In this document: piece by piece, positions 5,598-34,169 of the stretch | Numbering within the stretch: the stretch's first letter is position 1 | Layout of the letters: every line of letters starts with the position of its first letter | From: Acidobacteriota bacterium | GTDB taxonomy: Bacteria > Acidobacteriota > Thermoanaerobaculia > Multivoradales > Multivoraceae | Length of the DNA stretch: 37,583 bases | Direction: 5' to 3' | NCBI GenBank assembly: GCA_026708285.1 | Contig: JAPOVF010000278.1 | Location: 321-37,903 of the forward strand | Position numbers and translations under genes: made by a program | The notes under the pieces: model-generated | Told to the model about the DNA's origin: nothing | The model's input: only the letters and a program-made list of their open reading frames with translations | Database searches by the model: none

Positions 5598-5666
5598 CGT
5601 GTCTTCTCCTCGGTTGTCGTAGCCCGAGCGCTACACGCACTACTCTAGAGAGGCGGGGGGGAGAAC

Positions 5667-7463: not shown

Positions 7464-7667
7464 CTACCTGTCGAGCGGTATTCGTTCTCTGCGCAAGGGG
7501 ACACTCGGTGAGGCGACCCGCGACCGACTCTAGCGCTGCCGGTCGATCCCGGCATCTGGCGAGAGGCCGAAGCCGTTCCGATCCCTTGACGAAACGCCCC
7601 GGATCTGTTCGTCTTCACGAACTGTTCACAGGGGTGGCGGGCAGCGTCCCCGAGGAGTGAGACGAAA

Positions 7668-7883: not shown

Positions 7884-9295
7884 TGCGGGCCGGGGCTGCG
7901 AGCGAGTCCCAGGCCGAGCCTTCCTCGTTCCGCGATCCGGCGGGGCAGGTGATCGAGGGCCGGGACGGCCGCGTCTTCCGCAGCGTCGCGCCGGCGGCAG
8001 TAGAGGAGTACCGCTACGTGCGGAAGTGTGGCCTCGTCGATGCCCTGGTCGTCGAGGGGGGACTGGTGGCGGCGGAGGAGGTGGATCCGGTCGAGGCCGG
8101 CGTCCTGCCACCGCCCGGCGGGTTGGTCCTGGAACATCCCCGGCTGCCCTTCATCTCCTATCCGTACGAGTGGCCCTTCTCGCTGCTGAAGGAGGCGGCG
8201 CTCCATCACCTGGAAATGCAGATCCGGCTGCTCGACAGGGACATCTCGCTCTCCGACGCGAGCGCTTACAACGTGCAGTTCAAGGGCGCCAAGCCGGTGT
8301 TCATCGACTGGCTCTCGCTCCGGCGCTACCGCGAGGGCGAGTACTGGGAGGGCCACTCGCAGTTCTGCGAGCAGTTCCTCAACCCGCTGCTGCTGGCGGC
8401 GGAGCTCGGCGTTCCACACAACGCCTGGTATCGCGGGATGCAGGAGGGAATCCCGGCCCGCGAACTGGCGGCTCTGCTGCCGCGTCGGAAGCGCTGGTCA
8501 CCGAGGATGCAGGCGCACGTCCTGCTGCCGCTTCGATTCGAACGCCGCGCCGGCTCGCGGAGCGAAGCGGCGAAGCGGACAGAGAGACGTCCACTGCCGC
8601 GCAACGCGTACCGTGGTCTCCTCACCCAGCTCCGGCGCTGGATCGAGGGTCTCAGGCCCAAGGGCACGGACACGACGTGGAGCGACTACTCGCTGCTGAC
8701 CAGCTACGACACTGGCGAAGCCTCGCGCAAGGCTGAGTCCGTGCGCTCGTTCATCGCCGAGGCGCCGCCGGAACAGCTCTGGGATCTTGGTTGCAACACA
8801 GGCGAATTCTCCGCGATCGCCCTGGAAGAGGGCGTTCGGGACGTGATCGGCTTCGATGCCGATTTCGGCGCGCTGGAGAGCGCCTGCGCGCGGGCGCAGT
8901 CCGATCGGCTGCGCTTTCTGCCGCTGTACCAGGATCTGGCGAATCCATCGCCGGACCAGGGGTGGTCGCAGGTGGAGAGGCGCTCGCTGGCGCGCCGGTC
9001 GCGGAGCGCGGGCGCCCTGGTGGCGCTGGCAGTCCTCCACCACCTGGCCATCGGCCGCAACGTGCCGCTGCCCCGGATCGCGGCCTGGCTCGTCTCCCTG
9101 GCGCCGCGCGGACTCGTCGAGTTCGTGCCCCAGGGCGACCCGAGGGTCGACGATCTGCTCACGTTGCGGGGCGATCGCTTCGCCGACTACACGCCGGAGG
9201 CGTGGGAGGCGGCACTCGAGCCGTACGCCGCGATCCGCCAGGTGGAAACGGTGTCGGCGAGCGGGCGGAGGTTGTACACGTACGAGCGACGGTGA
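7883..9295 (+). CDS. Kinase-like/class I SAM-dependent methyltransferase fusion
   Basis: A 470-residue, probably cytoplasmic protein. The C-terminal half (about 260-470) is a class I methyltransferase: motif I WDLGCNTGEFS at 300-310 and the acidic ribose-binding strand GFDAD at about 323-327, with a VLHHL motif later. The N-terminal half carries SDASAYNVQF...PVFIDWLS (about 124-145), which resembles the catalytic Asp-x4-Asn and metal-binding Asp loop of aminoglycoside-phosphotransferase/lipopolysaccharide-kinase-like folds, with the first acidic position preserved. Proteins of this architecture are usually annotated only as nodulation-type or class I methyltransferases. The GTG start overlaps the stop of the upstream small membrane peptide. 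The acceptor is unknown; a surface glycan or lipid is a guess from the partner peptide. The gene lies within the repeat-protein array on the opposite strand. Confidence 0.8.
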   Translation: MRAGAASESQAEPSSFRDPAGQVIEGRDGRVFRSVAPAAVEEYRYVRKCGLVDALVVEGGLVAAEEVDPVEAGVLPPPGGLVLEHPRLPFISYPYEWPFSLLKEAALHHLEMQIRLLDRDISLSDASAYNVQFKGAKPVFIDWLSLRRYREGEYWEGHSQFCEQFLNPLLLAAELGVPHNAWYRGMQEGIPARELAALLPRRKRWSPRMQAHVLLPLRFERRAGSRSEAAKRTERRPLPRNAYRGLLTQLRRWIEGLRPKGTDTTWSDYSLLTSYDTGEASRKAESVRSFIAEAPPEQLWDLGCNTGEFSAIALEEGVRDVIGFDADFGALESACARAQSDRLRFLPLYQDLANPSPDQGWSQVERRSLARRSRSAGALVALAVLHHLAIGRNVPLPRIAAWLVSLAPRGLVEFVPQGDPRVDDLLTLRGDRFADYTPEAWEAALEPYAAIRQVETVSASGRRLYTYERR

Positions 9296-9343
9296 CTTCC
9301 GTACTGCGACTCGTCTTCGCGGGGCACGCTCGCCGCTCCAGCC

Positions 9344-11407: not shown

Positions 11408-11436
11408 GGTCGGATTCTAGCTAGCAGCTCGCTGAG

Positions 11437-14400
11437 TCAGTTCTGGCTGTCGGGGAGCGGCTGAAGATGCACCAGCAGGTTGTAGTAGTCGCTCTGCAGG
11501 TCGAGCGGCTGTTCGGTAGTGATTCCGAGACGGTGTCGGAACTGCAGTTGGTAGGTGCCGGCCGCCAGTCCCTTCATCTCGAAGCGACCCTGGTGGTCGG
11601 TTCTCGTCCGTCTCGGGTTCTCCTGACCTGGCTGCGACGCCGTGACGAAACCGTTGCTAGCCGGTGCCCCGCCACGAATATCTGGCCGGTCAACTGAAAG
11701 CCCGGCTGAAAGCGTAACTCGACGGTGGCGTTTGCCGCCCCCGGATCGACCGTCACGCTCTGCATGGGCGATCGCCGTTCGCCGGTTGTCGCGGAGAGTT
11801 GCCAGGTGCCGGGCGCGAGAGCCTCGAGCGAGAAACCGCCGTCGGGGTCAGGGGAGGTGCTCCGGAACAGTGTGCCTTGCCAGGCCTCTACGCCCACGGC
11901 CGCCATGTCCCCTGCGTCGAGGCCGGTGACCAGGCCGCGAATCGCAGCGCCCGGCTCGAGCACGATCGTGACGTCGGCGACGGATCGGTCGTTGATCTCG
12001 ACCTCTCCCGGCACCTCCGCTTCGGTGTAACCGGCAAACCGCGCGACGAGGTGGTAGCGGCCGCGATCCAGACCGGTTAGGCGGAACCTGCCGTCGGCGC
12101 CGGAAGTCGTCTGGGTCGGTGGCTCGATGAGGCGGCGAAGCCTGAGGTACGTCGGATTCAGCTGAACTGCTTCGGATAGCTCAGACGCCTGACCGGCCTC
12201 GACGGTGGCGCCGGCGATTGGCCGGTCGTCGACCGACAGGACGGAGCCCTTGATCTCCCAGCCCGGATTGAGCTGCACGTGCAGCTCGTTCCGACCGGCT
12301 TCGAGCAGGACTTCGCGCGCCCGAGTCAGTAGCGCCGCATGGCTCACTTCGACCGTCGCGGTCCCGGTCTCGACCTGCAGGTTCGCCCTGCCGCCGGCAT
12401 CGGTTCGCGCTCGTTCTCTTTGCTCCGCCGGGCCTTCGGAAGTCACCTTGACTTCCGCGTTGGCGACGGGCGCGCCAAGATGGTTGGTCACGATCACATT
12501 CAGTTGATCCTGAATCTCCAACTGCAACTCGATCTCACGCGAAGCGCCCGACCCCAGTTCGATGCCTTCCAGCGTGGCCCGGGCAGTCTCGTCTGCAGCT
12601 TCGAGGGACCATTTGGCGGGAACGAGTTGATCGAACCGGAACCGGCCGTCGTTGTCCGTGCGGGCGGAGTGAAAGAAGTGCTCGCCGGATACCGCAAGGC
12701 GGCGGAACTCGGTATAGGGCACGGATAGGCCGACCTGGACACCGGCAGCGGCGCTGCCTTCGGGGCTGAAGACCCGTCCGCTCAACGAAGCGCCCCTGGC
12801 CAGCTCGATCAGAATTGGCTCGCCGGTTGCGGGCCGTACGGATTCGACAGCGGTAGGGGCGTAGCCGTTCGCGGTCGCAGTGAGATCGGCCAGTACGGTC
12901 AGCAGTCCGCCCATCCGGAAACGTCCCCTGGCATCGGTAGTTGTGGTCCGTGTCTGCCTCGACAGGCCCTGGCTCCGTTGCCTGGCGCTGACCTGCACAC
13001 CTTCCACAGGACCTTGGTCGGGGCCGGAAACGACTCCGTAGATGGCGGCGCCGGGGGTAAGGACGAAGACACCCAGGTCGAAGTAGCCGGCACCGTGAGG
13101 AATGTTCACCGGTTTCCCTTCCAGTGCGACGTATTCCGGATGGGAGATGCCGACCCCGTACTGGCCGGGAGTCACGGTTGCAAACTCGAACTCGCCGCGG
13201 TTGCTGGAGTGGACCGCCCCAACTGCCTCTTCGTCACGAAAGCTCGCACGAAGCTCCGGATACTCGGAGGGCCACGAGAGTCGGATTTCGGCGCCGGCTA
13301 CGAGAGCCCCTTCCGGATCGACGACGGTGCCCCAGGGTTGCCGTCCCTGCGTCAGCACGATGCGGATCGGATCGACCAGGGATGCTCTCTGGAAGGGCGG
13401 CAGATCGTGTTGCGCAGGAGCGTGGGAAGGGGCTTCGACGGTGAGCCGGTAGCCGCTGTCGTACACGGCATTCGGGATCCAGAACGATCCATCAGGTCCG
13501 GACGTCGCCCGCCCGTGCCGGTCTGTGCGCCATTCGAGTGGCTCGTCGTCGACTGGCTCGGATTGGACATTGGCCCCAGCCACGGGACGGCCGAAGCCAT
13601 CGACGACCCAGCCGGCCAGAGGTGCAGCCGGCGCCAGTCCGATCAAGAACACCGTCCCCGCCGGAATGCGGTCCGCGTTGACGGTCGCGGTCGCGGCAAC
13701 GTAGTCGCCGGCGACCGCCCCGAGTACGGTGTCTCGCTGAGGGAGCGGATCGGAAAGGCGGAAGCCACCGGAGCGGTCCGCAACCGTGTGGCGGCCGGGA
13801 TCGGAGCGAATCCAGACCACAGCTTCGGGCACGCCGAGCCCGGTAGTTGCGTCCGCGATCCGGCCAGTAATGACGGCGGGTGGCTGCAGCAGTAGCTCCT
13901 GGACCGACGGTTCGGAAGTGCTTTCCGGGGCGGGCTGATTCCGGGTTCTCGTGCGGATCGACGAACCGTCAAGCGCCTCCGCCACGAGCGTCGCCAGTTC
14001 GTTGGCTCCGACGCCGATCGCGGCCAGACCATCCTCGTCCGTCAGAGCGACAGGAACCTCGTCGGCGCCACTGGCTCTCCGGATCACTGCCCGGTTTGCG
14101 GGTTCACCGTCCGGGCCGCGGACACGAAGAGCGGTCTCCGCTGCGGGGTCGAGCCTGAGGGCGGCGCGGCCCGACTCCACGTTCGCGCGCCGTGCCGCGA
14201 AGCCGGACGCCGCGACGACGACGTCCGCGGCTTGCGCCGGCATCAGGAACCGAGCGATGCCTTGAGCGTCCGTGCGTGCGGCCGCGCGCTCGAACTCAGG
14301 GTAGAGGCGCTCCGGTTGCCCGTGCGGAGGATGGTGCGGAGGGTTGCCCATCCGCTGCGTGGCCTTGGGAACCGCAATCACCATGGCGCCCTCGACCGGC

Positions 14401-14870
14401 TGACCGTCGGGGTCCAGTGTCCGGATCGTCAGGGGATGACGGCCTGGCAGCTCGATGGGCTCCAGGTGCAGGGGAACCCGCAGGGGCACGATGCGCCGAT
14501 ACACGCGCGCGATGGTGGCTGGACCGGTTGCCGCCGGACTTGGCCGGATCTCCAGCCGGTATGGGCCGACCAGGGGCGCCGACAGCGAGAAGGCGCCTTC
14601 TGGACCGGAGCGGACACCGTCGACGGCTTCCGGCAGGGCTCCCGGCTCGCCCAGAAGGTCGAGGTCGCGCGCATAGCCAGCGGGGTAGGGCCGGAGGACG
14701 ACTTCCGCGCCGGCCACGGCGCCGCCGTGCTCGTTCACAAGCGTGCCCGTGACGACGAGCGGCGTTTCAGCCGTGGGCTGCGCCAAGGCACCGGCGGCGG
14801 CGAAGAGGCCGAGGCCGAGAGCCGTGACGAAACGGAGAGCGAGTGGGCCCTTGTGCTTGAAGCTGGACAT
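11437..14870 (-). CDS. 12-module exported repeat protein, interrupted by a frameshift
   Basis: The uninterrupted frame runs from 14870 (or a TTG at 14882) to a stop at 11574 and gives about 1100 residues ending in an Arg-rich nonsense tail (RRRSQVRRTRDGREP). Shifting frame at the C4 run 11667-11670 recovers the rest of module 12: TDHQGRFEMKGLAAGTYQLQ and on to PLPDSQN, stopping at 11437. Adding one base to that run restores continuous homology with the paralogs (AGAPASNG aligning with DGAPLAGA). The signal peptide is MSSFKHKGPLALRF plus a hydrophobic core ending ALAQ. Modules 1-12 are present and module 13 is absent. ATG 14870 was preferred to TTG 14882 because it gives a standard signal peptide; ribosome sites are weak for both. 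The shift may be real decay, slippage or a sequencing error. Confidence 0.75.
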
Positions 14871-14909
14871 CTCTTTGCTCAACGACTGTAGCTACTCAAG
14901 CGAGAAAGG

Positions 14910-14962
14910 ACCGGACACCACAAGGCCAAGTCCGGCCAGATTCGCACGAGACCGGTCAGATC
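14910..14962 (-). promoter_or_regulatory. Phased triple-CCGG element, copy B
   Basis: In the 105-bp gap upstream of the 12-module gene. On the minus strand, three CCGG cores start 20 and 21 nt apart, in GACCGGTCT, TGGCCGGAC and TGGTGTCCGGTCC, with GCGAA between the first two. Order, spacing and surrounding bases match copy A at 5667-5719. Both gaps are the same length, so gene and upstream region were probably duplicated together and this part was kept. The regulator is unknown. Confidence 0.5.
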
Positions 14963-14987
14963 CGCTCATGGGCCGGCACGCCGGCCG

Positions 14988-17900
14988 CTACTCGTTCGGC
15001 GATTCGGCTGGCGCCGGTTGCAGCCGGATGACCATCCCTTCGACGTGCTCGCCCGGCGCGATGTTCAGAGGAATCTGAGTACCCTCGTAGCGGTCGTGAG
15101 TGACCCACAAGCGGTCGGCGTTTCGCCGCAACTCGAGCTTGAACGTGCCCGCTTGAGTGAGAACGGAACTGACCCCAACGAGTGGGCCTCCGGTCTCTCC
15201 ACCTGCCGCGATGGCGTCTATCGTCGCCGCGTCTGCGGCCTTCAGGTTGGCGTAGTCGAGCGGCAGGCCGGTTTCGGCGTCGACGACGACGCCGGCGACG
15301 GAGGCCGTGGCGGGTTCCAGTTCGATGCGGACGCCCTCCAGATCGGTCTGCAGATCGATCGACTGGTACTGCAGGCCGCTCAAGTCCGCCCGACTGACGA
15401 GCACCTGATTCAGGCCGGGTTCCAGTCCCTCCAGGGCGAAGCGGCCTTCCCGGTCGGCGCGGGCGGACGCGTCGCCCACCCACAGGTTCGCGCCGCCAAG
15501 CGGCGCACCGTCTTCCACCACTTGCCCGGATAGCCGCAGCCCGCGCTCGAACGGGAGTTCGACGAAGACCTCGGTCATGCCGCGCTCAATCGTCACCGTC
15601 CGCTCGACGGTTCGCTCCCACTCGCCCTTGATCGCCGTGACTTCCCATGTCCCCGGGCCGATCCCTTGGATCGAGAAGTTCCCGTCGGTGTCCCTCGTCG
15701 CGTCGCGGTGTCGGGGCCAGTTCCACGCGGAGACCTGCACCTGGTTCAGATCGGACGGCGATAACCCGGTCACGGCACCGACGATCGAGGCTTCCGGCTC
15801 GAGCACGATCTCGATGCCGGCGACGGCGTCGTCGCCGATCTCGATCGGTTCGTCCGGGCCGCCGTCCGCATAGCCGGGCGCGCGTGCGGTGAGGATGTAC
15901 CGGCGTGATTCGAGCCCGGTGATGCGGAAGGCGCCGTTCTGGTCTGAGACGGTGTTCCTTTCGTGCGACTCGACGCCGAAGGCGTACTCCGTGTTGGCCT
16001 CAACGGTAGCCAGGGCCAGAGGGACGCCGTCGAACGAACGCACCGAGCCGATGAGCTCCACGCCGGACCGAAGCTGGAATCGAACCTCGTTGTCGCCCGG
16101 TTCGAGTCGCACTTGCCGCGACTCGTCGCGGAGTGTCTCGTGTCTGACCACGACCGTTGCGGTGTCGGGCGTGACGTCGATCACCGCCCGCCCGCTGCCG
16201 TCCGTCCGTCCATAGCCGATTGGCAGAGGTTCGCCTGGCGTTTCCAGGCGAATCCGCGCGCCGGCTACCGGCTCGCCGAACTCGGTCGCTACGATGACGG
16301 TCAGCCGATCCCTCGTCCGCAGCACCAGTTCGATCCCCCGTTCTCCGCCGGGAATCAACTCGATCCCGTCGAGCTTCGCGCCTTCCGCTTCTCTGCTTGC
16401 CTCGGCCGACCACGTGCCGGCCGCGAGACCGTTGAAGCGGAAGCGGCCGTCCCTGTCCGTGACTTGCGAGGGGAACGTGTCAACGGCGTCCCACAGGCGT
16501 GGGTCGCCATCCTTGCGGTAGTCGAGTTCGATCTCAAGGCGGACGGGAACGCCGCCAACACCGTTGCCACCGTTGTCGAGGACACGGCCGTGGATGGAAG
16601 CCCCGGGTCGGAGTTCGATCAGGACGGGGTCGGCCTGGTCTACGCGTACGTTCGGCTGAACGTGCAGTGGGTAGCCGGTTGCCAGCACGCCGAGGTCGAC
16701 GAGGTCCGAGGAGAAGCCCTTGAGCCGGAATCGGCCGTCCGCGTCGGTGGTGGACGTTCTGGTTGCGGATTGGACCCGATCCGGTTCCTCTGCCTGAACG
16801 GTTGCTCGGCCGACGGGCTCCCCGTCGGGGCCGGTGATGGTGCCGTGGATCGCTCCGCCGGCCGCCAGCGTGAGATCACCGAGATCGAAGTCCGACTCTC
16901 CGGCTGGCACATCGACCGGCGAGAGCGGCCGATCGGCGTAGTCCGCGTGGCGGACCTGGACCTTGTACGCGCCTGGTCCAGTGGCGGGGAGTGCGAATGC
17001 GCCCCGACCGTCGGTCGGGGCGGCAGCGGCCGGGGCTTCGAGTCCGGACCGGAATTCGGACGGGTCGAGAGGCCAGAGCAGCGAGACCTGAGCCTCCGCC
17101 ACCGGGTTCCCCTCGGTATCGACGACCGAGCCGAGAACGCGCCGGCCCTTGCTCAGCACGAGGTGAATGGGGTCGACGGGCATGCCCGGCTCAAGCGGCG
17201 GCAGGTCGAGGGCAGAAGTGGCGTAGCCCGCCGCTTCTGCGGTCAGGCGGTAGGTATGTCCGTACCGGAGCTCCAGCCGGAAGGACCCGTCGGGGCCTGG
17301 AGTGGCCGGCGTGGATGAGAGCGAGACGCTTGGCAGGACTCCGGCGGCGCGGGGTTCGGCCCGGATGCTCGCGCCGGCAACGGGTTGACCGGTGTCGTCC
17401 GTAACCAGGCCCCGAAGGGCTGCCGAAGGCGACAGTCCGATCCGCACTTCCTCCCGGTTGGCCAGGTCCGCAGCGCTGATGTCGATTCGCTCGTAGAGGA
17501 AGCCGGTCGCCGTCGCCAGCAGACGGGTTGCTCTGTCAGTGGGCCCGGTGCTCAGGTCGAAAGCGCCCGTGGAGTCGGTGAAGGCGTGGTTGCCGGGGAA
17601 CGCGTTGACCCAGATTGCCGCGCCGTGGATGGGCAGGCCGGACGCTACGTCGACGATCCGGCCTGGAATCCGGAGGGGATCTTCGAGTCGTGCGTCGACG
17701 ATGTGCTGTCGGTCCTGCGATTCGGCCGGAGTCGCCGCAGGCAGGGAAACCTGACCGAAGGCGCCGTTGGCAGCTTCGATTTCCAGGGCGGTTTCCTTGC
17801 CGGGGGTCCGGCCGATGATCGCTTCGCCGTGTTCGTCGGTGATCGCCAGAGGCGTGTCGAAGGCGCCGAGTGCGCTTGGAGCGCTGATCCTCCTTTGCGC

Positions 17901-18782
17901 GGTGGACGTGCCGGCGCTCATGATCCGCTCGCGGGCGCTTGCGGTCCGGATCACCGCACCGGGCACCGGTGCACCGGTGGCCCCGCGCACGCGCAGTCGG
18001 ACCCCGGCATCGTTTTCCAGGCGTAACGCGACGCGACCGGACCTCGTCGTTCCCATTCCGAGAGCGAAGCCCCTCGCCGAGACGAGGACTGTGGCGTTCG
18101 CGGTCGGCATGGCGAACCGCGCGATGCCCTCGGCATCGGTGTGGGAAGTGGAGGGGTGGTAGGTGGGGAACACATGCTGCGCCGCCGGCCGCAAGTAGTT
18201 TCCCGAGTTCATGGCGCGCGCCGTCCGGGCCATGACAGCGGACGTGCGAGGCGAGGCCAGGACGGAGGGATTGGCCACGACCAGGGCGCCCGCGATCGGC
18301 TGATCGTCGGAATCCAGCACCCGGACGGCGACGGGATGACGGTCAGGCACGTCAACGGTCTCCGCGACTCGCGACCCCTTGAGCGGCACGAGGACCCCCT
18401 GGACCAGCGGCATCGCGTCGCCCGGCTCGTTCGGGGGCGGCGAGCGCCCGAACTCCAGGCGATAGGGACCGGCCGCGGGCGCGGAGAGGGAGAAGACTCC
18501 GTCCGCGTCGGAACGGGTCCTGTCGACGGCCTCCGGCAGCGCGTCCGAGTGACCGAGAACGTACAGATCCGCTTCGAACGCGCTCGGATGCGGCCGCAGA
18601 ACGACCTCGATATCGGCGGCGGGAGCGCCGCTGTCGTCGACAACGGTGCCGGTGACGATGTTGGGCGCGTCGGCGGGTTGGGCCGTAAGGGGGCCGGTGG
18701 CGAGTCCGGCGAGGCCGAGGCACAGCAGTAGCCGGGGCATATCCAGGTGCAACCCGCACCCGAAAGAGGTCATTCCGAGCAT
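14988..18782 (-). CDS. Exported 13-module repeat protein, tandem copy 2
   Basis: A 1264-residue protein closely similar over its whole length to the gene directly upstream (18796-22587), with shared stretches such as APAADIEVVLRP, PSAFEADLYVLG and GSRVAETVDVP. It is thus the product of a fairly recent tandem duplication. It has a signal peptide (MPRLLLCLGLAGLATG core, cleavage near TAQPA) and 13 beta-sandwich modules. The ATG at 18782 is only 13 bp after the upstream stop and has no clear ribosome site, so translation may be coupled. Inner ATGs at 18773 and 18740 are alternatives, and 18740 gives the most usual signal peptide. No enzymatic motif was seen; a structural or binding role outside the cytoplasm is inferred. 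Confidence 0.85.
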   Translation of the reverse strand: MLGMTSFGCGLHLDMPRLLLCLGLAGLATGPLTAQPADAPNIVTGTVVDDSGAPAADIEVVLRPHPSAFEADLYVLGHSDALPEAVDRTRSDADGVFSLSAPAAGPYRLEFGRSPPPNEPGDAMPLVQGVLVPLKGSRVAETVDVPDRHPVAVRVLDSDDQPIAGALVVANPSVLASPRTSAVMARTARAMNSGNYLRPAAQHVFPTYHPSTSHTDAEGIARFAMPTANATVLVSARGFALGMGTTRSGRVALRLENDAGVRLRVRGATGAPVPGAVIRTASARERIMSAGTSTAQRRISAPSALGAFDTPLAITDEHGEAIIGRTPGKETALEIEAANGAFGQVSLPAATPAESQDRQHIVDARLEDPLRIPGRIVDVASGLPIHGAAIWVNAFPGNHAFTDSTGAFDLSTGPTDRATRLLATATGFLYERIDISAADLANREEVRIGLSPSAALRGLVTDDTGQPVAGASIRAEPRAAGVLPSVSLSSTPATPGPDGSFRLELRYGHTYRLTAEAAGYATSALDLPPLEPGMPVDPIHLVLSKGRRVLGSVVDTEGNPVAEAQVSLLWPLDPSEFRSGLEAPAAAAPTDGRGAFALPATGPGAYKVQVRHADYADRPLSPVDVPAGESDFDLGDLTLAAGGAIHGTITGPDGEPVGRATVQAEEPDRVQSATRTSTTDADGRFRLKGFSSDLVDLGVLATGYPLHVQPNVRVDQADPVLIELRPGASIHGRVLDNGGNGVGGVPVRLEIELDYRKDGDPRLWDAVDTFPSQVTDRDGRFRFNGLAAGTWSAEASREAEGAKLDGIELIPGGERGIELVLRTRDRLTVIVATEFGEPVAGARIRLETPGEPLPIGYGRTDGSGRAVIDVTPDTATVVVRHETLRDESRQVRLEPGDNEVRFQLRSGVELIGSVRSFDGVPLALATVEANTEYAFGVESHERNTVSDQNGAFRITGLESRRYILTARAPGYADGGPDEPIEIGDDAVAGIEIVLEPEASIVGAVTGLSPSDLNQVQVSAWNWPRHRDATRDTDGNFSIQGIGPGTWEVTAIKGEWERTVERTVTIERGMTEVFVELPFERGLRLSGQVVEDGAPLGGANLWVGDASARADREGRFALEGLEPGLNQVLVSRADLSGLQYQSIDLQTDLEGVRIELEPATASVAGVVVDAETGLPLDYANLKAADAATIDAIAAGGETGGPLVGVSSVLTQAGTFKLELRRNADRLWVTHDRYEGTQIPLNIAPGEHVEGMVIRLQPAPAESPNE

Positions 18783-18795
18783 CCAGCAGCCGGCG

Positions 18796-21700
18796 CTACT
18801 GGTCGTGCGGTTCGGCCGGCGCCGGTTGCAGTCGGATGACCAGCCCTTCGCGGTGCTCGCCCGGCACGATGTTCAGAGGAATCTGAGCACCCTCGTACCC
18901 GTCGAGAGTCACCCACAAGTGGTCGGCGTTCTCGCGCAACTCGAGCTTGAACTTGCCCGCTTGGCTGAGAACGAAACTGGTCCCGACGAGTGGGCCGCCG
19001 GCGTCCCCGCCCGCGGCGATAGCGCCAATGGTCGCGGTGTCTCCGGCCATCAGGTTGGCGTAGTCGAGCGGCTGGCCGGTCTCGGCATCGACGACGACGC
19101 CGGCGATCGTGGCCGCAGCCGGTTCCAGCTCGATGCGGACGCCTTCGAGGTCGGTCTGCAGATCGATCGACTGGTACTGCGAGCCACTGAAATCCGGCCG
19201 ACTGACGAGCATCCGATTCGGGCCGGGTTCGAGTCCCTCCAAAGCGAAGCGGCCTTCGCGGTCGGCGCGGACGGATACGGCGCCCACCGAAAGCCTCGCG
19301 CCGGCAAGGGGCGCACCGTCCTCAGCCACTTGCCCGGACAGCCGCAGCCCGCGCTCGAAGGGTAACTCGACGAAGACCTCGGTCAACCCCCGCTCGACCG
19401 TCACGGTCCGTTGGACCCTCCGCTCCCAGTCGCCCTTGATCGCTGTAACCTGCCATGTTCCCGGGCCGATCCCCTGCACGGAGAAGCTGCCGTCCGTGTC
19501 CCGCGTGGCGTCGCGGGACCGGGGTCCCTGCCGGGCGTACACCCGCACCTGGTTCACGTCGGCCGGCGAAAGCCCGGTTACGGTGCCGACGATCGAGGCC
19601 TCCGGCTCCAGCACGATCTCGATGCCGTCGACCGAGTCGTCGCCGATCTGGATCGGCTCGTCCGGGCCGCCGTCCGCGTAGCCGGGCGCGCGTGCTGTGA
19701 GGATGTAGCGGCGTGGTTCAAGCCCGGTGACGCGGAAGGCGCCGTTCTGGTCAGAGACGGTGTTCGTACGGTGTGACTCGGCACCGAAGGAGTACTCGGT
19801 CTTGGCTTCCACGGTCGCCAGGGCCAGAGGGGTGCCCTGGTACGAGCGGACCGTGCCGCTGAGCTCCGCGCCGGGCCGAAGCTGGAATCGAACCTCGTTG
19901 TCGCCCGACTCGAGTTCGACCCTCCGCGACTCGTTGCGAAGCTCGTCGTGGTTGACCTTTACGGTTGCTGGCCCCGGCGTGATGTCGATCACCGACCGCC
20001 CGCTGCCGTTCGTTCGTCCGTAGCCGCTTGGCAGCCGCTCGCCGGGCGACTCCAGACGAATCTGCGCGCCGGCCACCGGCTCGCCGACCTCCGTCGCGAC
20101 GATGACCGTCAGTCGGTCCCTGGTCCGCAGGACGAGTTCGATCTCCCGTTCTGCTCCCGGGATCAGCTCGATCCCGTCGAGCTTTGCCCCTTCGTTGTCC
20201 TTCCGTGTCTCCGCCGACCAGGTGCCGGCCGCCAGACGGTCGAAGCGGAACCGGCCTTCCTTGTCCGTGACCCGGCGGGGGTACGTGTCCGCGATGCTCC
20301 AGAGCCTGACGTCGCGGCTGGTGCTGAAGTCGGGTTCGAACCGGAGCCTGACGGGAACCCCTGGGGCGCCGTTGCCGCCGTTGTCGAGCACTCGGCCTGT
20401 CACGGCAGCCCCAGGCTTGAGTTGGATCAGTTCCGGGTCGGCGTTGTCTACGCGCACTCTGGGCACGACGAGCAACGGGTAGCCGGAGGCTCGCACGCCG
20501 ACGTCGGCGAGAGCGGAAGAGAATCCGTCGAGGCGAAATCGGCCGTCCGCGTCGGTCGTCGCGGTCCTGGTCGCTGAGCGGACCCGATTCCTCTCGCGGG
20601 CCTGAATCGTCGCGCGAGCAACCGGCTCCCCGTCGGCTCCGGTCACGATGCCGTGGATCGTTCCGCCGGCTACCAGCGTGAGATCGCCGAGATCGAAGTC
20701 CGACTCTCCGGCCGGCACTTCGACCCGGGAGAGCGGCCGGTCGGCGTAGTCGGCGTGGCTGACCCGAACCTCGTACTCACCTGGTCCGGTGCTGGGGAGT
20801 GCGAACGCGCCCCCACCGTCGGTCGCGGCGGCAGCGGCCGGGGCTTCGAGCATCGAGCGGAAGTCGGATGTGTCGAGAGGCCAGAGAAGCGAGACCTGAG
20901 CCCCCGCCACCGGGTTTCCGTCCATATCGACGACTGAGCCGAGGACGCGACGACCTTCGCTCAGAACGAGATGAACGGGTTCGACGGGCTTGCCTCGTTC
21001 AAGAGGCGGCAGGTCGAGGGCAGAAGTGGCGTAGCCCGCCGCTTGTGCGGTCAGGCGGTAGGTATGTCCGTACGAGGCCTCCTCCACGCGGAAGGAACCG
21101 TCTGAGCCTGAAGTGGCCGGACCGGATTCGAACGAGAAGCTGGGCGGGACTCCGGCGCCGCGCGGTTCGGCTCGGATGCTTGCGCCGGCAACGGGTTGAC
21201 CTGCGTCGTTCGTGATCAGACCCCGAATGAGCGCTGAAGGCGTCAATCCGATCCGTACTTCCTCCCCGCTGGACAGGTCCGCAGCGCCGATGTCGATTCC
21301 TTCGGGAAGAAAGCCGGCCGCCACCGCCTGCAGACGCATTCCTCCGGGAAAGGGTCGGGTGTTCAGGTCGAACGCGCCGGTGGGGCCGCTGAACGCGTGG
21401 TGACCGGGGAACGACTGGACCCAGATTGCCGCGCGGTCGATTGGCAGGCCGGACTCCGCATCGACGATCCGGCCTGGAATCCGGAACGGGGCATCGAGCC
21501 GCACGTCGATGATCCGCTGACGTTCCTGCGATTCAGCAGGATCCGCGGCCGGCAGGGAGACCTGCGAGAAAGCACCGTCCGCTGCCTCGACTTCCAGAGC
21601 GGTCTCCGCGCCGGGCATCCGGCCGAGCACTGCCTCTCCGTTCTCGTCGGTGATCGCCAGAGGTGTGTCGGAGCCGCCCAAAGCGCCGGGTGTGGTGAGG

Positions 21701-22587
21701 GTCCTCAGGGCGGCGGACGTGCCGGCGTTCATGATCCGGTCGCGGGCACTGGCCGTGCGGATCACCGCACCGGACACCGGTGCGCCGGTTGAACCACGCA
21801 CGCGCAGTCGGACTCCGGGATCTTCTTCCAGGCGCAACGCGACGCGGCCGGATCTGGTCCTTCCCTTGCCGAGAACGAAGCCCGCCGCCGAGACGAGGAC
21901 GGTGGCGTCCGCGGTCGGCATCGCGATGCTCGCGATCCCCTCGGCATCGGTGCGAGAGGCGGAGGGGTGGTAGGCGGGGAAGACCTGCTGCGCCGCCGGT
22001 AGCGAGAAGTTCCCCGTGCTCATGGCGCGGGCCATACGGGTCAAGGCAGCGGAGGTGCGAGGCGAGGCCAGAACGGACGGGTTGGCAACAACCAGGGCGC
22101 CCGCGATCGGCTCATCGTCGGTATCCAGCACCCGAACGGCAACGGGATGGCGTTCGGGCACGTCAACGGTCTCCGCGACCCGAGACCCCTTGAGCGGTAC
22201 GAGGATTCCCTGGACGAGCGGCATGGCGTCGCCGCGCTCGTTCGCGGGCGTCGAGCGCCGGAACTCCAGGAGATAGGGGCCGGCTGCAGGCGCCGACAGG
22301 GAGAAGCCCCCATCGACGTCGGAGCGGACCTGGTCAACGGCCTCGGCAAGCGTGTCCGACTGGCCGAGAACGTACAGATCCGCTTCGAATGCGCTCGGAA
22401 AGGGTCGTAGAACCACCTCGATGTCGGCGGCGGGCGCACCGCGTTCGTCGACGACCGTACCGGTGATCGTGGGTGGCGGATCGTTGGCTGGTTGGGCGAA
22501 CAGACCGGGGACGACAGAACCGACCAGGAAGATCGCCGGCAGCCATCGGGGCGTTCGTTCTCGGAACCGGAGGCTTGAGCGGGTCAC
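18796..22587 (-). CDS. Exported 13-module repeat protein, tandem copy 1
   Basis: A 1263-residue protein with a signal peptide (basic N-region, hydrophobic core AIFLVGSVVPGLFAQ) and 13 modules that account for the whole mature chain. They start at about residues 41, 146, 258, 369, 453, 547, 643, 728, 825, 908, 998, 1081 and 1159. Modules 2 and 3 are the longest and carry inserts (SVLASPRTSAA region; SARDRIMNAG region). Module 9 begins RLTVIV instead of the usual xGxV strand, a feature shared at the same position by the tandem copy and by the 12-module paralog. The GTG start at 22587 lies 9 bp after the amidase stop, so this gene appears to be transcribed from the upstream hydrolase/CoA-transferase operon. 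Function unknown; exported beta-sandwich repeat scaffold. Confidence 0.85.
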   Translation of the reverse strand: MTRSSLRFRERTPRWLPAIFLVGSVVPGLFAQPANDPPPTITGTVVDERGAPAADIEVVLRPFPSAFEADLYVLGQSDTLAEAVDQVRSDVDGGFSLSAPAAGPYLLEFRRSTPANERGDAMPLVQGILVPLKGSRVAETVDVPERHPVAVRVLDTDDEPIAGALVVANPSVLASPRTSAALTRMARAMSTGNFSLPAAQQVFPAYHPSASRTDAEGIASIAMPTADATVLVSAAGFVLGKGRTRSGRVALRLEEDPGVRLRVRGSTGAPVSGAVIRTASARDRIMNAGTSAALRTLTTPGALGGSDTPLAITDENGEAVLGRMPGAETALEVEAADGAFSQVSLPAADPAESQERQRIIDVRLDAPFRIPGRIVDAESGLPIDRAAIWVQSFPGHHAFSGPTGAFDLNTRPFPGGMRLQAVAAGFLPEGIDIGAADLSSGEEVRIGLTPSALIRGLITNDAGQPVAGASIRAEPRGAGVPPSFSFESGPATSGSDGSFRVEEASYGHTYRLTAQAAGYATSALDLPPLERGKPVEPVHLVLSEGRRVLGSVVDMDGNPVAGAQVSLLWPLDTSDFRSMLEAPAAAAATDGGGAFALPSTGPGEYEVRVSHADYADRPLSRVEVPAGESDFDLGDLTLVAGGTIHGIVTGADGEPVARATIQARERNRVRSATRTATTDADGRFRLDGFSSALADVGVRASGYPLLVVPRVRVDNADPELIQLKPGAAVTGRVLDNGGNGAPGVPVRLRFEPDFSTSRDVRLWSIADTYPRRVTDKEGRFRFDRLAAGTWSAETRKDNEGAKLDGIELIPGAEREIELVLRTRDRLTVIVATEVGEPVAGAQIRLESPGERLPSGYGRTNGSGRSVIDITPGPATVKVNHDELRNESRRVELESGDNEVRFQLRPGAELSGTVRSYQGTPLALATVEAKTEYSFGAESHRTNTVSDQNGAFRVTGLEPRRYILTARAPGYADGGPDEPIQIGDDSVDGIEIVLEPEASIVGTVTGLSPADVNQVRVYARQGPRSRDATRDTDGSFSVQGIGPGTWQVTAIKGDWERRVQRTVTVERGLTEVFVELPFERGLRLSGQVAEDGAPLAGARLSVGAVSVRADREGRFALEGLEPGPNRMLVSRPDFSGSQYQSIDLQTDLEGVRIELEPAAATIAGVVVDAETGQPLDYANLMAGDTATIGAIAAGGDAGGPLVGTSFVLSQAGKFKLELRENADHLWVTLDGYEGAQIPLNIVPGEHREGLVIRLQPAPAEPHDQ

Positions 22588-29324: not shown

Positions 29325-30212
29325 ATGTATGTCCACCTGATCGACGGCACCTACGAGCTCTTTCGCCATCACTTCGGCGCGCCGAGCTACCGGAACGACG
29401 ATGGGCTCGAGGTCGGTGCGGTGCGCGGCGTCGTGTTCTCGGTGCTCGGCATGTTTCGCGACGGAGCGACCCACGTCGCCGTGGCAACGGACCACGTGAT
29501 CGAGTCGTTTCGCAACGACCTCTGGCCCGGCTACAAGACCGGCGAGGGGATCGACCCGGAGCTTCTGGCCCAGTTCCCGCTGCTCGAGGAGGCGCTGGAC
29601 GCGCTCGGGGTCACCGTCTGGCCAATGGTGGAGCACGAAGCGGACGACGGGTTGGCCAGCGGCGCCGCGATGGCTGCCGCCGCCGAGCGGGTGGTCGAGG
29701 TCCGCATCTGCACGCCCGACAAGGATCTGGCGCAATGCGTGGACTCCGGCCGTGGCGGCCGGGTGGTGCAGGTCGACCGTCGCCGCGGCCTGCGCTGGGA
29801 CGCCGACGGTATCCGGGAGAAGTTCGGTGTCGAGCCGGAGTCGATCCCGGACTACCTCGCCCTGGTCGGTGACAGCGCCGACGGTTTTCCGGGACTGCGA
29901 GGCTGGGGCGCCAAGTCGGCGGCGACCGTGCTGGCGCACTATGTCCACCTGGAGGAGATACCGAACGAGCCCTGGAAGTGGGCGGTCAAGGTGCGGGGAC
30001 GGGACCGGCTGGCCGCCACTCTGCGGGAGGAACGGGAGGCGGCGGAGCTCTTCCGCGAACTTGCCACGCTGGTCCGTGACGCCCCGGTGAGCGGGTCGGT
30101 GGACGAGCTCCGATGGCGGGGCGCCGAACCGGGGTTGGCGGCCATGGAGGAGCGGCTCCGGGCTCCCGGTCTCGTGCGTCAGGCGGAGCGGGTGGCTAGC
30201 GAGTCGGCGTAG
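29325..30212 (+). CDS. Stand-alone 5'-3' exonuclease (DNA polymerase I N-domain/FEN family)
   Basis: 295 residues corresponding to the 5' nuclease domain of DNA polymerase I without a polymerase. Metal-ligand positions are kept: Asp7 (LIDGT), Glu105/Asp107/Asp108 (EHEADD), Asp132/Asp134 (TPDKDL) and Asp183/Asp186 (VGDSADG). A helix-hairpin/H3TH segment follows (about 181-201, GFPGLRGWGAKSA). The family removes 5' flaps and RNA primers during replication and repair. This copy is either a supplementary nuclease like ExoIX/Xni or works with a polymerase lacking this domain. The ATG at 29325 has only a weak purine-rich site. The MTHFR gene follows by 13 bp, so they are probably co-transcribed, though no functional link is apparent. 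Confidence 0.88.
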   Translation: MYVHLIDGTYELFRHHFGAPSYRNDDGLEVGAVRGVVFSVLGMFRDGATHVAVATDHVIESFRNDLWPGYKTGEGIDPELLAQFPLLEEALDALGVTVWPMVEHEADDGLASGAAMAAAAERVVEVRICTPDKDLAQCVDSGRGGRVVQVDRRRGLRWDADGIREKFGVEPESIPDYLALVGDSADGFPGLRGWGAKSAATVLAHYVHLEEIPNEPWKWAVKVRGRDRLAATLREEREAAELFRELATLVRDAPVSGSVDELRWRGAEPGLAAMEERLRAPGLVRQAERVASESA

Positions 30213-30225: not shown

Positions 30226-32004
30226 GTGAAACTGATCGACAAGCTCCACTCCACGATCTCGGAAGGAAGGCCGTTCTACTCCTTCGAGTACTTCCCGCCG
30301 AAGACGGAAGCCGGGATCGAGAACCTCTACGCGCGCATCGAGCGCATGGGGCGGCTGGAGCCGGCGTTCGTCGACGTCACCTGGGGTGCCGGCGGCAGCA
30401 CGGCGGAACTGACATTCGAGCTGGCGAACACGATCGAGAACGTGCTCGGCCTCGAAACGATGATGCACCTGACCTGCACCAACATGCCGCGGCGCCGGAT
30501 CGCGGCGGTGCTGGACGACTGCCGCGCCCGCGGCATCGGCAACATCCTCGCGCTGCGGGGCGATCCGCCCCGCGGCCGTGGTGCCTGGTCGCCGATCGCC
30601 GACGGCTTTTCGTACGCTTCGGACCTCGTGCGCTTCATCCGTGAAGAGCATGGAGATCACTTCGGGATCTGCGTCGGTGGCTACCCGGAAGGCCACCCGG
30701 AGGCCCCTAGCCGGGAGCGGGATCTCGACCATCTGGCCGCCAAGGTGGCGGCCGGCGCCGACTTCGTGATCACGCAGATGTTCTACGAACCGGAGCTGTA
30801 CTTCCGCTTCCTGGAGGATTGCAGGGCACGCGGCATCGACTGTCCGATCGTTCCGGGACTGGCGCCCGTCAACGGCTACCAGTCCTTTCAGCGCATCACG
30901 GGCTTTGGCGCCAGCGCGCCGCCCGAGATCGTCAACGAGATCGAGGCGCGCCGGTTCCACGACGCCTCGGTCCGCGAGTACGGCCAGGATCTGCTGACGG
31001 GCATCTGCCGCCGCCTGCTGGACGGCGGCGCCCCCGGTCTTCACTTCTACACCCTGAACCTGGAGCGATCGGTGCAAGTCATCCTGGACCGGCTCGGCAT
31101 CGTGCCGGAGCGGGTCGAGCGGGTTCTGCCGTGGCGGAGCGCGACGGCCGTTCCGCGCCCCAAGGAGGACGTGCGTCCGATCTTCTGGGCCAACCGGCCG
31201 AAGAGCTACCTCGCCCGGACGTTAGCTTGGGACGAGTTCCCGAACGGGCGCTGGGGCGATGCCGGTTCTCCCGCGTTTGGCGATCTCGGCGATCACCATC
31301 TCGCGTTTCGCCCGGTCAAGGCCGATGTCGCGCGTGAGCGTTGGGGCCGTGAGCTGCGCTCGATCGACGAGGTACGGGAGGTCTTCGCGGGATTCTGCCG
31401 GGGCGATGTCGACGGGATCCCCTGGTACGACTGGCCGCTGGACCTGGAGAGCGAACCGCTGCGCAACGCGCTGGTGCGGTTGAATCTGGCGGGGCTGCTG
31501 ACGATCAACTCGCAGCCGCGGGTGAACGGCGCTCCGTCCGACGATCCGGCGGTCGGCTGGGGCGGCGCCGGAGGCCGCGTGTACCAGAAGGCGTACCTGG
31601 AGTTCTTCGTGTCGCCGGAGCAGGTGCCGCCGCTGCTGGCGGCGCTGGACGGCAAGCCGAGCGTGACGTACCACGCGATCGACCGGTCCGGCACGTCTTA
31701 CAGCAACTGCGACACGGTCAATGCGGTGACCTGGGGCGTCTTCCCGGGTGAGGAGATCCGCCAGCCGACGATCGTCGATCCGCGCTCGTTCGAGGTCTGG
31801 AAGGACGAGGCCTTCGACCTGTGGCTGTCGTCCTGGGCGGCGGTGTACGAAGAGGACAGCCAGTCACGCCGCCTGCTCCAGCGCATCCACGACACCTACT
31901 TCCTGGTCAACGTGGTCGACAACGACTACGTCGACGGCGACCTGCTCGGCTACCTGCTCGAAGCGGTCGCCGACGCGGACGACCGTCGCCGCGCCGAACT
32001 CTGA
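30226..32004 (+). CDS. Methylenetetrahydrofolate reductase, eukaryote-type two-domain form
   Basis: 592 residues. The N-terminal FAD-binding barrel (about 1-300) has SFEYFPPKTE with the catalytic Glu21, a TWGAGGST motif and the GGYPEGHPEA loop. It reduces 5,10-methylenetetrahydrofolate to 5-methyltetrahydrofolate for methionine synthesis. Unlike ordinary bacterial MetF (about 300 residues), it continues through the eukaryotic linker EDVRPIFWANRPKSY (about 314-328). A complete C-terminal domain follows with WDEFPNGRWG, LTINSQP, VGWGGAGG, QKAYLEFF, NAVTWGVFPG, WKDEAF and NYFLVN-like motifs of human MTHFR and yeast Met13. In eukaryotes that domain binds S-adenosylmethionine and inhibits the enzyme; the same allostery here is inferred. 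GTG start 13 bp after the exonuclease stop. Confidence 0.93.
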   Translation: MKLIDKLHSTISEGRPFYSFEYFPPKTEAGIENLYARIERMGRLEPAFVDVTWGAGGSTAELTFELANTIENVLGLETMMHLTCTNMPRRRIAAVLDDCRARGIGNILALRGDPPRGRGAWSPIADGFSYASDLVRFIREEHGDHFGICVGGYPEGHPEAPSRERDLDHLAAKVAAGADFVITQMFYEPELYFRFLEDCRARGIDCPIVPGLAPVNGYQSFQRITGFGASAPPEIVNEIEARRFHDASVREYGQDLLTGICRRLLDGGAPGLHFYTLNLERSVQVILDRLGIVPERVERVLPWRSATAVPRPKEDVRPIFWANRPKSYLARTLAWDEFPNGRWGDAGSPAFGDLGDHHLAFRPVKADVARERWGRELRSIDEVREVFAGFCRGDVDGIPWYDWPLDLESEPLRNALVRLNLAGLLTINSQPRVNGAPSDDPAVGWGGAGGRVYQKAYLEFFVSPEQVPPLLAALDGKPSVTYHAIDRSGTSYSNCDTVNAVTWGVFPGEEIRQPTIVDPRSFEVWKDEAFDLWLSSWAAVYEEDSQSRRLLQRIHDTYFLVNVVDNDYVDGDLLGYLLEAVADADDRRRAEL

Positions 32005-32014: not shown

Positions 32015-32509
32015 TCAGGCCGACGAGCCGCCGTCCATGACGATCGTCGCGCCAGTCACGTAGCTGCCCATCTTCGAGGCCAGGAACACGGCGGCGCCGG
32101 CGATCTCGTTCGGCTGGGCGTGGCGACCGACCGGCGTCCGGCTGGCGATCGCCTGCCGCTTCTCCTCCGTGTCGACCAGGACGCTGGCGAAGTACGTCTC
32201 GACCACGCCGGGCGCGATCGCGTTGACCCGGATACCGAACTGACCCAGTTCCTTGGCCCAGCCGCGGGTCATGTTGAGGACGGCCGCCTTGGTCAGCGCG
32301 TAGGTCAGCTCGTTCGGGCCGGGGCGCAGGCCGGCGATCGAGGCGACGCTGATGATGTTGCCCGAGCGCTGTTGCTTCATCAACCGGGCAGCCTGCTGGA
32401 TGTGGACGAAGTAGCCCTTGAGATTCACTTCCAGGGTCTTGTCGAAGGCCCACTCGGGCATGTCGATCGCGGGCCCGAAGTACGGGTTGGTGGCGGCGTT
32501 GTTGACCAG
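32015..32509 (-). pseudogene. SDR oxidoreductase, C-terminal fragment of a split gene
   Basis: About 163 codons forming the second half of a classical SDR. It begins at the NNAATNP motif and includes VASIAG (catalytic Ser), YALTK (Tyr and Lys), and a C-terminal GATIVMDGG typical of FabG-like enzymes. There is no nucleotide-binding motif. The frame continues upstream into foreign sequence (MMGMASDS). Joined at the shared CTGGTCA to the fragment at 33893-34169, it would restore a normal SDR of about 254 residues. Whether the fragment is expressed is unknown. It converges on MTHFR with 10 bp between stops. Confidence 0.85.
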
Positions 32510-32571
32510 ACTGTCAGAGGCCATCCCCATCACCCACGCCTACAGGACGCGCACCCCGCCGGTGGGTAGGA

Positions 32572-32603
32572 TGGCTTAGGGCCGAGAAGCGCGGCCCTAG
32601 CCA
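32572..32603 (+). other. Strong hairpin upstream of the tRNA-like gene
   Basis: TGGC, a bulged T and TAGGGCC (32572-32583) pair with GGCCCTA and GCCA (32593-32603) around a 9-nt loop, giving 11 base pairs. No U-tract follows. It lies 8 bp before the tRNA-like sequence; it may be a processing, terminator or recombination structure. Confidence 0.5.
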
Positions 32604-32611
32604 TGTTGGTT

Positions 32612-32684
32612 GCGGGTGTAGCTCAATGGTAGAGCGCCATCCTTACCAGTTCGGAGGTCGCGGGTTCGAGTCCCGTCACCCGCT
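32612..32684 (+). tRNA. tRNA-Gly-like gene with an abnormal anticodon arm (possible pseudo-tRNA)
   Basis: The acceptor stem GCGGGTG/CACCCGC, D arm GCTC-AATGGTA-GAGC, T arm GCGGG-TTCGAGT-CCCGT and discriminator T73 are intact and match bacterial tRNA-Gly. The 24 bases between the D and T arms (32636-32659) do not form a regular 5-bp stem with 7-nt loop. CCATC can pair only partly with GTTCGG, with a mismatch and a bulge, leaving CTTACCA as the loop. Compared with a tRNA-Gly(UCC) loop CTTCCAA it looks as if an A was gained and another lost. CCA is not encoded (CTCCC follows). It is either a decayed tRNA carried by the inserted segment or an unusual isoacceptor; the anticodon is left unassigned. 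Confidence 0.55.
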
Positions 32685-32799
32685 CCCGCATGCTTGACCA
32701 CCATCCGCTCCTGACGACGCGCTATCGGGACTGGCCCCGCGCTAAGCTGCCAGAAACGCTAGCACACCTACTGAACAGCCTCGGCGAGAACTATCGCTC

Positions 32800-33021
32800 T
32801 CATTCTAGCCGCTCCGGGTCGAGAAGAGCCGTAAGTAGATCCATCGCCAGATCGTCGGCGATGTCCCGGTCGAGTCTGAGTGTCAGCATGGCCGGAGGGT
32901 AGGTGGAGAACACAGGGGCGCAGATGATGTCCCCGTGTTCGTCGATGGAGACGATCACGTCGTCGGGCCGGAAGTCGATGCAGTGACGCTGTAGGTGTTC
33001 GCCCGTCTCTTCGGGTGTCAC
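32800..33021 (-). CDS. Small hypothetical protein, 73 residues
   Basis: Not recognised. The GTG start at 33021 overlaps the stop of the upstream lipoprotein gene by four bases (GTGA), so it is translationally coupled. The protein is acidic and has no signal peptide: MTPEETGEHLQRHCIDF, then a strand-rich middle (VIVSIDEHGDIICAPVF) and a helical C-terminus (DDLAMDLLTALLD). The longer open frame to 33123 lies within the partner gene and was not used. It is carried by the segment interrupting the SDR gene. A cytoplasmic partner or regulator of the lipoprotein is possible but unsupported. Confidence 0.5.
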   Translation of the reverse strand: MTPEETGEHLQRHCIDFRPDDVIVSIDEHGDIICAPVFSTYPPAMLTLRLDRDIADDLAMDLLTALLDPERLE

Positions 33022-33437
33022 GACGCGACGCAGCGCCGACCGGCTTCGGCGTTGAGCGCGGCGACGTAGCCCTTGGCGCGAGCTATCCGGTGTTCGTAGT
33101 TGTTCGTGTCGCGGGCAGACCAACGGGCCGCTTGCTGGAGGTCCATGAGTTCGTCGAGTTCATCCTGCATGGACAGCGTGGACTCGACCAGTTGATCGCA
33201 GGTCAGCGTCCGCATCGAACTCAGAACGAGGTCTGTAGGCGGTACGGGCGCGATCGAAACCGCGGCGGGCGTGGACAGGCTCACGCATCCGGTGAGCAGC
33301 AGGAAGCTGAGTATCCAGCCAGTTGGATAGAGTACGGAGTTGGCGGGGGCTGGAGCCGCGCCGGGCTTGCTACAGCCAGCCTCGTTGGCATGAAGGCGCG
33401 TCTCCACGCCCCCGCCAGAAATCATCGGCTTCCGCAA
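33018..33437 (-). CDS. Small putative lipoprotein on the inserted segment
   Basis: 139 residues from a TTG start at 33437 that has a near-perfect ribosome site (AAGGAGG at 33444-33450, six bases upstream). An ATG at 33425 is an alternative. A hydrophobic stretch WILSFLLLTGC at about residues 41-51 with a lipobox-like LTGC indicates a lipoprotein, although the 34-residue N-region is unusually long. The mature part is helical and charged (SMQDELDELMDLQQAARW) and has a Cys near each end. No family recognised. It forms a two-gene mini-operon with the 73-residue protein. Confidence 0.55.
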   Translation of the reverse strand: MRKPMISGGGVETRLHANEAGCSKPGAAPAPANSVLYPTGWILSFLLLTGCVSLSTPAAVSIAPVPPTDLVLSSMRTLTCDQLVESTLSMQDELDELMDLQQAARWSARDTNNYEHRIARAKGYVAALNAEAGRRCVAS

Positions 33438-33443
33438 TGGGAG

Positions 33444-33450
33444 CCTCCTT
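33444..33450 (-). promoter_or_regulatory. Strong ribosome binding site before a TTG start
   Basis: AAGGAGG on the minus strand, six bases before TTG at 33437. It is the best Shine-Dalgarno match noticed in the window and the main evidence that the small lipoprotein gene is real. Confidence 0.65.
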
Positions 33451-33892
33451 CCCTGGGTGCTGGCTGTAGCGTCGCCAGCGTACCACGGACAAGGCGGAGG
33501 CTGCGGCCTTTCTCTGTTGGCGCGGCAGGGAAGAATGCCGGGCCGTTGTCACGCTGGCGCGAGTGGCTCAGGGTCCGGTCTATTCGCCTTCATGGGCGGG
33601 ATACGCTCCCGTCTACACGGCTCTTGTATTCGACCAGCGACCCGACGAAGCGGGCCACTCGCGCGTGACTACGGCAGGGTATCAGGAAGCTCAGGATGGG
33701 CGCAAACAGCGTTGGAAAAACGGGAAATCTGCGGAATGGGCCGTGATAGTGGACGTTTCAGACCGGTAGTACCCACCCCACCGTAAGTCACCAAATCATC
33801 TTCCACCCGCCCCATCCGTCTGCACCGCAAGGGCTTACGGCGTATGGCGGTCGGACCACGCGCGCCGAGGATGACGGCGAAAGTGTACGTCC
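33451..33892. other. Stretch of the inserted segment without a confident gene
   Basis: About 440 bp with no convincing coding sequence. A plus-strand open frame to a TAG at 33767-33769 (from GTG 33563, 68 residues, including VYTALVFDQRPDEAGHS) could be a small gene or the end of a decayed one. The SDR fragment's frame runs in from the right for about 74 codons of unrelated sequence. Confidence 0.4.
33781..33840. repeat. Inverted repeat near the right edge of the insertion
   Basis: CCGTAAG at 33781-33787 and CTTACGG at 33834-33840 form a perfect 7-bp inverted repeat with 46 nt between. The right arm also lies in an imperfect palindrome, CCGCAAGGGCTTACGG. It could be a recombination or regulatory site. 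Confidence 0.35.
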
Positions 33893-34169
33893 TGACCAGG
33901 ATGTCGAGCCGCCCGAACTCGCTCTCGATGCGTTCGAACAGGCCCGCGATCTGCTCCACGTTGCCCGCATGGCAGGCGATCGGCACCGCCTTGCCACCGT
34001 CGGCCTCGATCGCCTCGGCGACCTGGTCGAGCCCTTCCTGCTTCCGCGACGCGAGGACCACGGTCGCGCCCTGCTCGGCGAAGCCGCGCGCGATGGCTTC
34101 TCCGATGCCGCGAGAGGCGCCGGTTACGAGGGCGATCTGGCCGGTGAGAGTGAAGTCGAGAATGGGCAT
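33893..34169 (-). pseudogene. SDR oxidoreductase, N-terminal fragment of a split gene
   Basis: 92 codons with the nucleotide-binding motif TGASRGIG at residues 16-23 and the strand FGRLDILV that precedes the NNAA motif in SDRs. It then runs into the inserted segment and reads unrelated residues to a stop at 33669. The ATG at 34169 has GGAGAC upstream, so the truncated protein could still be made, but it lacks the catalytic Ser, Tyr and Lys, which are on the fragment at 32015-32509. Joined, the halves make a normal FabG-like SDR with no residue lost. Confidence 0.85.

Follow-up and report, generated by a model that had tools for sequence, protein, structure and literature searches.

A bacterial MTHFR with a eukaryote-type SAM-binding regulatory domain in a genus of Acidobacteriota

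The whole stretch of Acidobacteriota DNA considered here (the window; 37,583 nucleotides) carries a gene for a methylenetetrahydrofolate reductase (MTHFR) made of two domains, located 13 bases past a 5'-3' exonuclease gene with which it is probably co-transcribed. The features concerned are the following:

29325-30212, plus strand: 5'-3' exonuclease gene (PF02739 and PF01367), whose end lies 13 bases ahead of the MTHFR start
30226-32004, plus strand: gene for the two-domain MTHFR (592 aa), open over 592 codons from a GTG start, stop codon included in the coordinates
30241-31098, plus strand: catalytic TIM-barrel domain, residues 6-291 (PF02219, E 4.5e-105)
31120-31959, plus strand: linker and SAM-binding regulatory domain, residues 299-578 (PF21895, E 4.4e-96)

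Both domains are nearly complete as judged from Pfam, the match to PF21895 ("MTHFR, SAM-binding regulatory domain") spanning positions 2-293 of the 301 in the profile. Ordinary MetF proteins such as those of E. coli and Thermus thermophilus, whose catalytic domain aligns with the window MTHFR over its entire length, stop after this domain, whereas the window protein continues for approximately 290 residues. Of the NCBIfam models, TIGR00677 (fadh2_euk) scores 364 bits against a cut-off of 310, and TIGR00676, the ordinary bacterial model, falls below its own cut-off. These matches bear out an earlier sequence-only reading of the locus, which had proposed a bacterial MTHFR with the eukaryotic AdoMet-regulatory domain and had pointed to the linker motifs RPKSY and NGRWG, found here at residues 324-328 and 340-344, respectively; chance cannot account for matches of this strength. 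The GTG start is common to the genus copies examined and always lies 19 codons upstream of a FEYFPP-type motif. The gene is intronless with a host-like GC3 of 0.88, similar to that of its neighbors, and purifying selection on its catalytic and regulatory domains is similar (dN/dS of 0.08-0.12 and 0.09-0.13).

Among the known enzymes resembling the window protein is human MTHFR (6fcx, 8qa4-8qa6), which has the identical domain order over 576 residues and shares with it the SAM contacts and the FPNGRW linker motif. The alignment to 6fcx covers residues 3-578 (E 1e-177) and equates the catalytic residues E21, D50, T52, H81 and Y275 with human E63, D92, T94, H127 and Y321. Full-length identity is 49% (46% in the catalytic and 53% in the regulatory domain), which is about equal to that between the human and fungal enzymes (44% and 49%). 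The serine-rich phosphorylated N-terminus of the human enzyme is missing from the window protein, and the residues of its helix alpha-8 (Lys270-Lys273) that are tied to NADPH preference are not kept, one of them being deleted in an alignment that crosses the deletion; the sequence gives no indication of a choice between NADH and NADPH. The MTHFR of Chaetomium thermophilum (8uy1, 8uy2) shares the architecture with 48% identity; its Arg326 corresponds to Ala322 in the window protein. A predicted monomer model of moderate confidence (mean pLDDT 75, linker below 50) superposes on the complete human and fungal enzymes across approximately 590 columns with a TM of 0.75, active-state structures being the closest and the fungal active state the nearest of all. 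Regulatory residues 370-479 (window positions 31333-31662) also give a sub-threshold match (25.8 bits for a cut-off of 27) to DUF6919 (PF21897), a stand-alone bacterial domain of unknown function that is not fused to MTHFR and whose SAM-binding fold is related to that of the MTHFR regulatory domain (PMC11701544).

The genus carrying this gene includes Candidatus Multivorans thiocomprendens. PF21895 was found in 19 of its 21 genomes but not in the remaining 69 genera of the class; in three genomes the gene sits on contigs of 4.63, 3.88 and 3.06 Mb. One further Acidobacteriota genus with PF21895 was found in a sample of the phylum (G189, G222). In the window genome and almost every member of the genus, PF02219 matches nothing but the two-domain protein; a second, weak match to this family occurs in G003, and the MTHFR gene of G020 is broken up at contig ends. 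In G015 (95% complete) and G008 (86% complete), MTHFR was not found in any form, which may reflect assembly gaps or loss, perhaps accompanied by methionine auxotrophy.

In the same family, three sister genera encode instead a very divergent one-domain MetF (approximately 206 bits; L073, L076, L077), without the regulatory domain and starting with SFEIIPPLRGG, which belongs to the same PF02219 family as the window protein and is expected to catalyze the same reaction. The gene for this native enzyme adjoins metH in three sister-genus genomes (L129, L130, L131). It is missing from the Multivorans genus, where metH is retained without metF (L126, L127, L128, L133) and is 66-70% identical to that of the sister genera (genus metH from G019), while the two-domain MTHFR gene is located elsewhere, behind the exonuclease gene. 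A search for a metF remnant around metH in four genus genomes, allowing E values up to 1, yielded none. The two-domain MTHFR has replaced the native one-domain enzyme in this genus and, since the native metF was lost, transfer into the lineage, a question raised by the earlier reading, is well supported. MetH and SAH hydrolase are both encoded in the window genome, and the methyl cycle that the MTHFR would serve is therefore present.

Between 2018 and 2026, reviews and structural papers have described the SAM-sensing domain of MTHFR as existing only in eukaryotes (PMC5995969, PMC11183114, PMC13001107). We found no description of a bacterial two-domain MTHFR and no publication on Multivorans or Multivoradales in the open-licence literature. 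Two short motifs, scanned across 84,980 species genomes, produced 30 loci, those outside Acidobacteriota being labelled Neomarinimicrobiota, Oligoflexales (Bdellovibrionota), Planctomycetota and Myxococcales/Deltaproteobacteria. A more sensitive search located the two-domain MTHFR in 13 of 245 genomes of Neomarinimicrobiota, in 7 of 58 from the phylum to which the Oligoflexales belong, in 3 of 5 from the small phylum labelled Deltaproteobacteria and in 1 of 6 from the class containing the planctomycete; for one phylum, it returned 13 cases where the motif scan had returned 4. In all 15 bacterial genomes examined through their loci, the two-domain protein is the only MTHFR, and its flanking genes are bacterial (tilS and folP in L045, lon in L050, a SpoU methylase gene in L042). 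No relative was detected in a scan of viral_contigs, and no match over 80% of the query in phage and plasmid records, in which the matches were MetF-sized only. One apparent bacterial case, in a Verrucomicrobiaceae bin (L052:3897-5947), was rejected as an intron-interrupted eukaryotic contaminant of a genome with its own one-domain MetF. We note that in the Neomarinimicrobiota locus L045 (5855-10685) the MTHFR gene is immediately followed by tilS and, at some distance on the same strand, by a folP-like gene for dihydropteroate synthase.

In trees in which eukaryotes were represented by four sequences (human, Chaetomium, the catalytic domain of yeast Met12, and one pieced together from exons on a contaminant contig), the two-domain enzymes of bacteria and eukaryotes all fell into one clade relative to nine one-domain MetF sequences (100/99, catalytic domain), the catalytic domain of the window protein grouping with eukaryotic MTHFR rather than with one-domain bacterial MetF. 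Within this clade, the copies of Neomarinimicrobiota, Bdellovibrionota, Planctomycetota and the second Acidobacteriota genus grouped together (90/97), with the eukaryotes, the Multivorans genus and the Deltaproteobacteria group branching at the base in no supported order. The eukaryotes did not form a single clade in the free trees, although such a clade was not rejected (p-AU 0.08 at full length, 0.30 for the catalytic domain), and neither was one holding the bacteria together (p-AU 0.27). Because the closest relatives of the genus enzyme among the sequences compared are bacterial (56-60% identity, versus 46-53% for human), the donor of the genus copy was, judging from these identities, most likely another bacterium.

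Where the bacterial copies ultimately came from is a separate matter. Their derivation from eukaryotes, through one or more transfers, is a possibility to be taken seriously, if a doubtful one: the two-domain architecture, said to be general among eukaryotes (PMC13001107, PMC11701544), is patchy in bacteria, but divergence among the bacterial phyla is about as large as that between human and fungus, the copies of four of the bacterial groups cluster together as described above, and no bacterial copy falls within a resolved eukaryotic group. We regard as rather unlikely the converse scenario, in which the enzyme arose in bacteria and was acquired early by eukaryotes. Suggestive of it are the deep branches formed by two-domain enzymes of at least five bacterial phyla, the stand-alone bacterial relative DUF6919 with its sub-threshold match (PMC11701544), and the free trees in which a single eukaryotic clade is missing, albeit not rejected; the base of the two-domain clade, however, lacks resolution, with only four eukaryotic sequences and long branches meeting there. 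More speculative, and unlikely in our estimation, is the extended proposal that a SAM-feedback MTHFR of bacterial origin, with two domains, persisted here and there in mostly uncultured phyla and gave rise to the eukaryotic enzyme, its blocking plug being rebuilt from other residues in different lineages.

Turning to regulation, two SAM molecules bind the regulatory domain of human MTHFR, upon which the linker shifts and the active site takes in Tyr404; disruption of either SAM site or of Tyr404, as in Tyr404Ala, abolishes inhibition, Gln509 bridges the two SAM molecules, and the FPNGRW region shapes the second SAM site (PMC11018872). Human SAM-site and plug positions were mapped onto 29 bacterial sequences. 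In the window these positions are:

31237-31254, plus strand: FPNGRW motif, residues 338-343 (human F384-W389), invariant in the bacterial rows bar one F-to-Y
31294-31299, plus strand: His357-His358, aligned with the auto-inhibitory plug Tyr403-Tyr404 of the human enzyme; two histidines in every genus sequence compared
31447-31449, plus strand: Glu408, human Glu463 (SAM site 1) in the residue map
31510-31515, plus strand: Ser429-Gln430, human Ser484-Gln485 in the residue map
31585-31587, plus strand: Gln454, human Gln509 in the residue map
31768-31800, plus strand: Thr515 and Trp525, human Thr573 and Trp583 in the residue map

The equivalents of Glu463, Ser484, Gln485, Gln509, Thr560, Thr573 and Trp583 are invariant in the 29 bacterial sequences. 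All 13 SAM-site residues checked match the human enzyme, as compared to 139 of the 268 regulatory-domain positions overall (hypergeometric P 1.5e-4), and 12 of the 13 are invariant in every bacterial row, as compared to 58 of 268 (P 4e-8), both P values being comparisons of columns that take no account of relatedness. A mutation of the AdoMet-binding residues, which the earlier reading had named as evidence against itself, was looked for and not found among the SAM contacts of the regulatory domain, and SAM binding by the window MTHFR is likely.

The tyrosine plug of eukaryote-type MTHFR, on the other hand, is not present. The human Tyr-Tyr-Leu-Phe segment reads His-His-Leu-Ala in the genus, and human Asp289-Asn290, two residues in contact with the second SAM or next to it, are replaced by Phe-His in the catalytic domain of the window protein. 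The tyrosine plug differs between human and fungus and was not taken as decisive for family membership: Chaetomium has Tyr-Gly-Val-Gly at the aligned segment and uses Tyr361 as its plug (PMC13001107). In other bacteria the segment opens with Tyr-Tyr, Tyr-His, His-Tyr or His-Pro. By sequence, the window protein is a eukaryote-type MTHFR, with one mechanistic residue changed, in organisms where this type was said not to occur.

The architecture, the distribution, the replacement of the native gene, the conservation of the SAM sites and the purifying selection on both domains are established. We consider it quite probable that the two-domain protein is the only, working MTHFR of the genus, a SAM-sensing enzyme gained horizontally with loss of the native metF, which feeds MetH and is slowed by SAM. 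The enzyme would most likely make 5-methyl-THF for MetH. At high SAM, two SAM molecules would bind the regulatory domain and slow the enzyme, the linker shifting and the catalytic site becoming blocked, with the His-His segment presumably standing in for the human tyrosine plug. SAM inhibition of the window MTHFR is probable in these terms, with a histidine in the role of the tyrosine or with an altered strength.

The AdoMet feedback put forward in the sequence-only reading is partly supported: the SAM-contacting residues are conserved (13 of 13), and one element required for inhibition of the human enzyme, Tyr404, is a histidine in the genus. Because of this histidine and of the change of Asp289-Asn290 to Phe-His, inhibition could be weak, absent or different in the genus, and it is conceivable, if improbable, that the regulatory domain is kept for folding and dimer formation, SAM feedback having been lost or changed. 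The presence of His-His-Leu-Ala in all genus sequences, the effect of Tyr404Ala on the human enzyme (PMC11018872) and the formation of the eukaryotic dimer through the regulatory domain (PMC13001107) are suggestive of such a loss or change. Against it, the SAM contacts and FPNGRW are retained, and constraint on the regulatory domain is similar to that on the catalytic one. In addition, a histidine could stack on the flavin as a tyrosine does, and the plug varies in other lineages, a single tyrosine one alignment position earlier being sufficient in the fungal enzyme (PMC13001107).

Taken with its conserved SAM sites, the enzyme of the Multivorans genus suggests that SAM feedback of the MTHFR type also exists, or even began, in bacteria, in which case some bacteria would control their methyl supply through enzyme feedback on MTHFR. 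With their SAM site intact and their plug naturally varied, the bacterial homologues from at least five phyla provide material on the origin of the switch and on its essential parts.

An origin of the gene in a eukaryotic host or an alga, by contamination of the assembly, is extremely improbable: the window assembly (4.99 Mb) does consist of 402 contigs with an estimated contamination of 4.7%, and the Verrucomicrobiaceae bin mentioned above does hold a eukaryotic gene that is truly spliced, together with its own one-domain MetF, but the window gene recurs in nearly the whole genus, on closed or near-closed bacterial chromosomes (contigs up to 4.63 Mb), is free of introns, host-like in GC3 and flanked by bacterial genes, and is the sole MTHFR there; the eukaryotic contamination that the earlier reading had named as a refutation was not found.

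Two other observations were made in the window. Downstream of the MTHFR gene, a short-chain dehydrogenase (SDR) gene on the minus strand (32018-34169) is split into an N-terminal part (34169-33894) and a C-terminal part (32512-32018). The approximately 1.4 kb between them had no blastn match in 16 other genus loci, in which both parts lie side by side in almost every case, and may represent an insertion or an assembly join. Positions 1854-18782 of the minus strand encode at least five large proteins in a row (586-1264 aa) with arrays of carboxypeptidase-regulatory-like (PF13620) repeats, followed by a sixth open reading frame of 1263 aa at 18796-22587.
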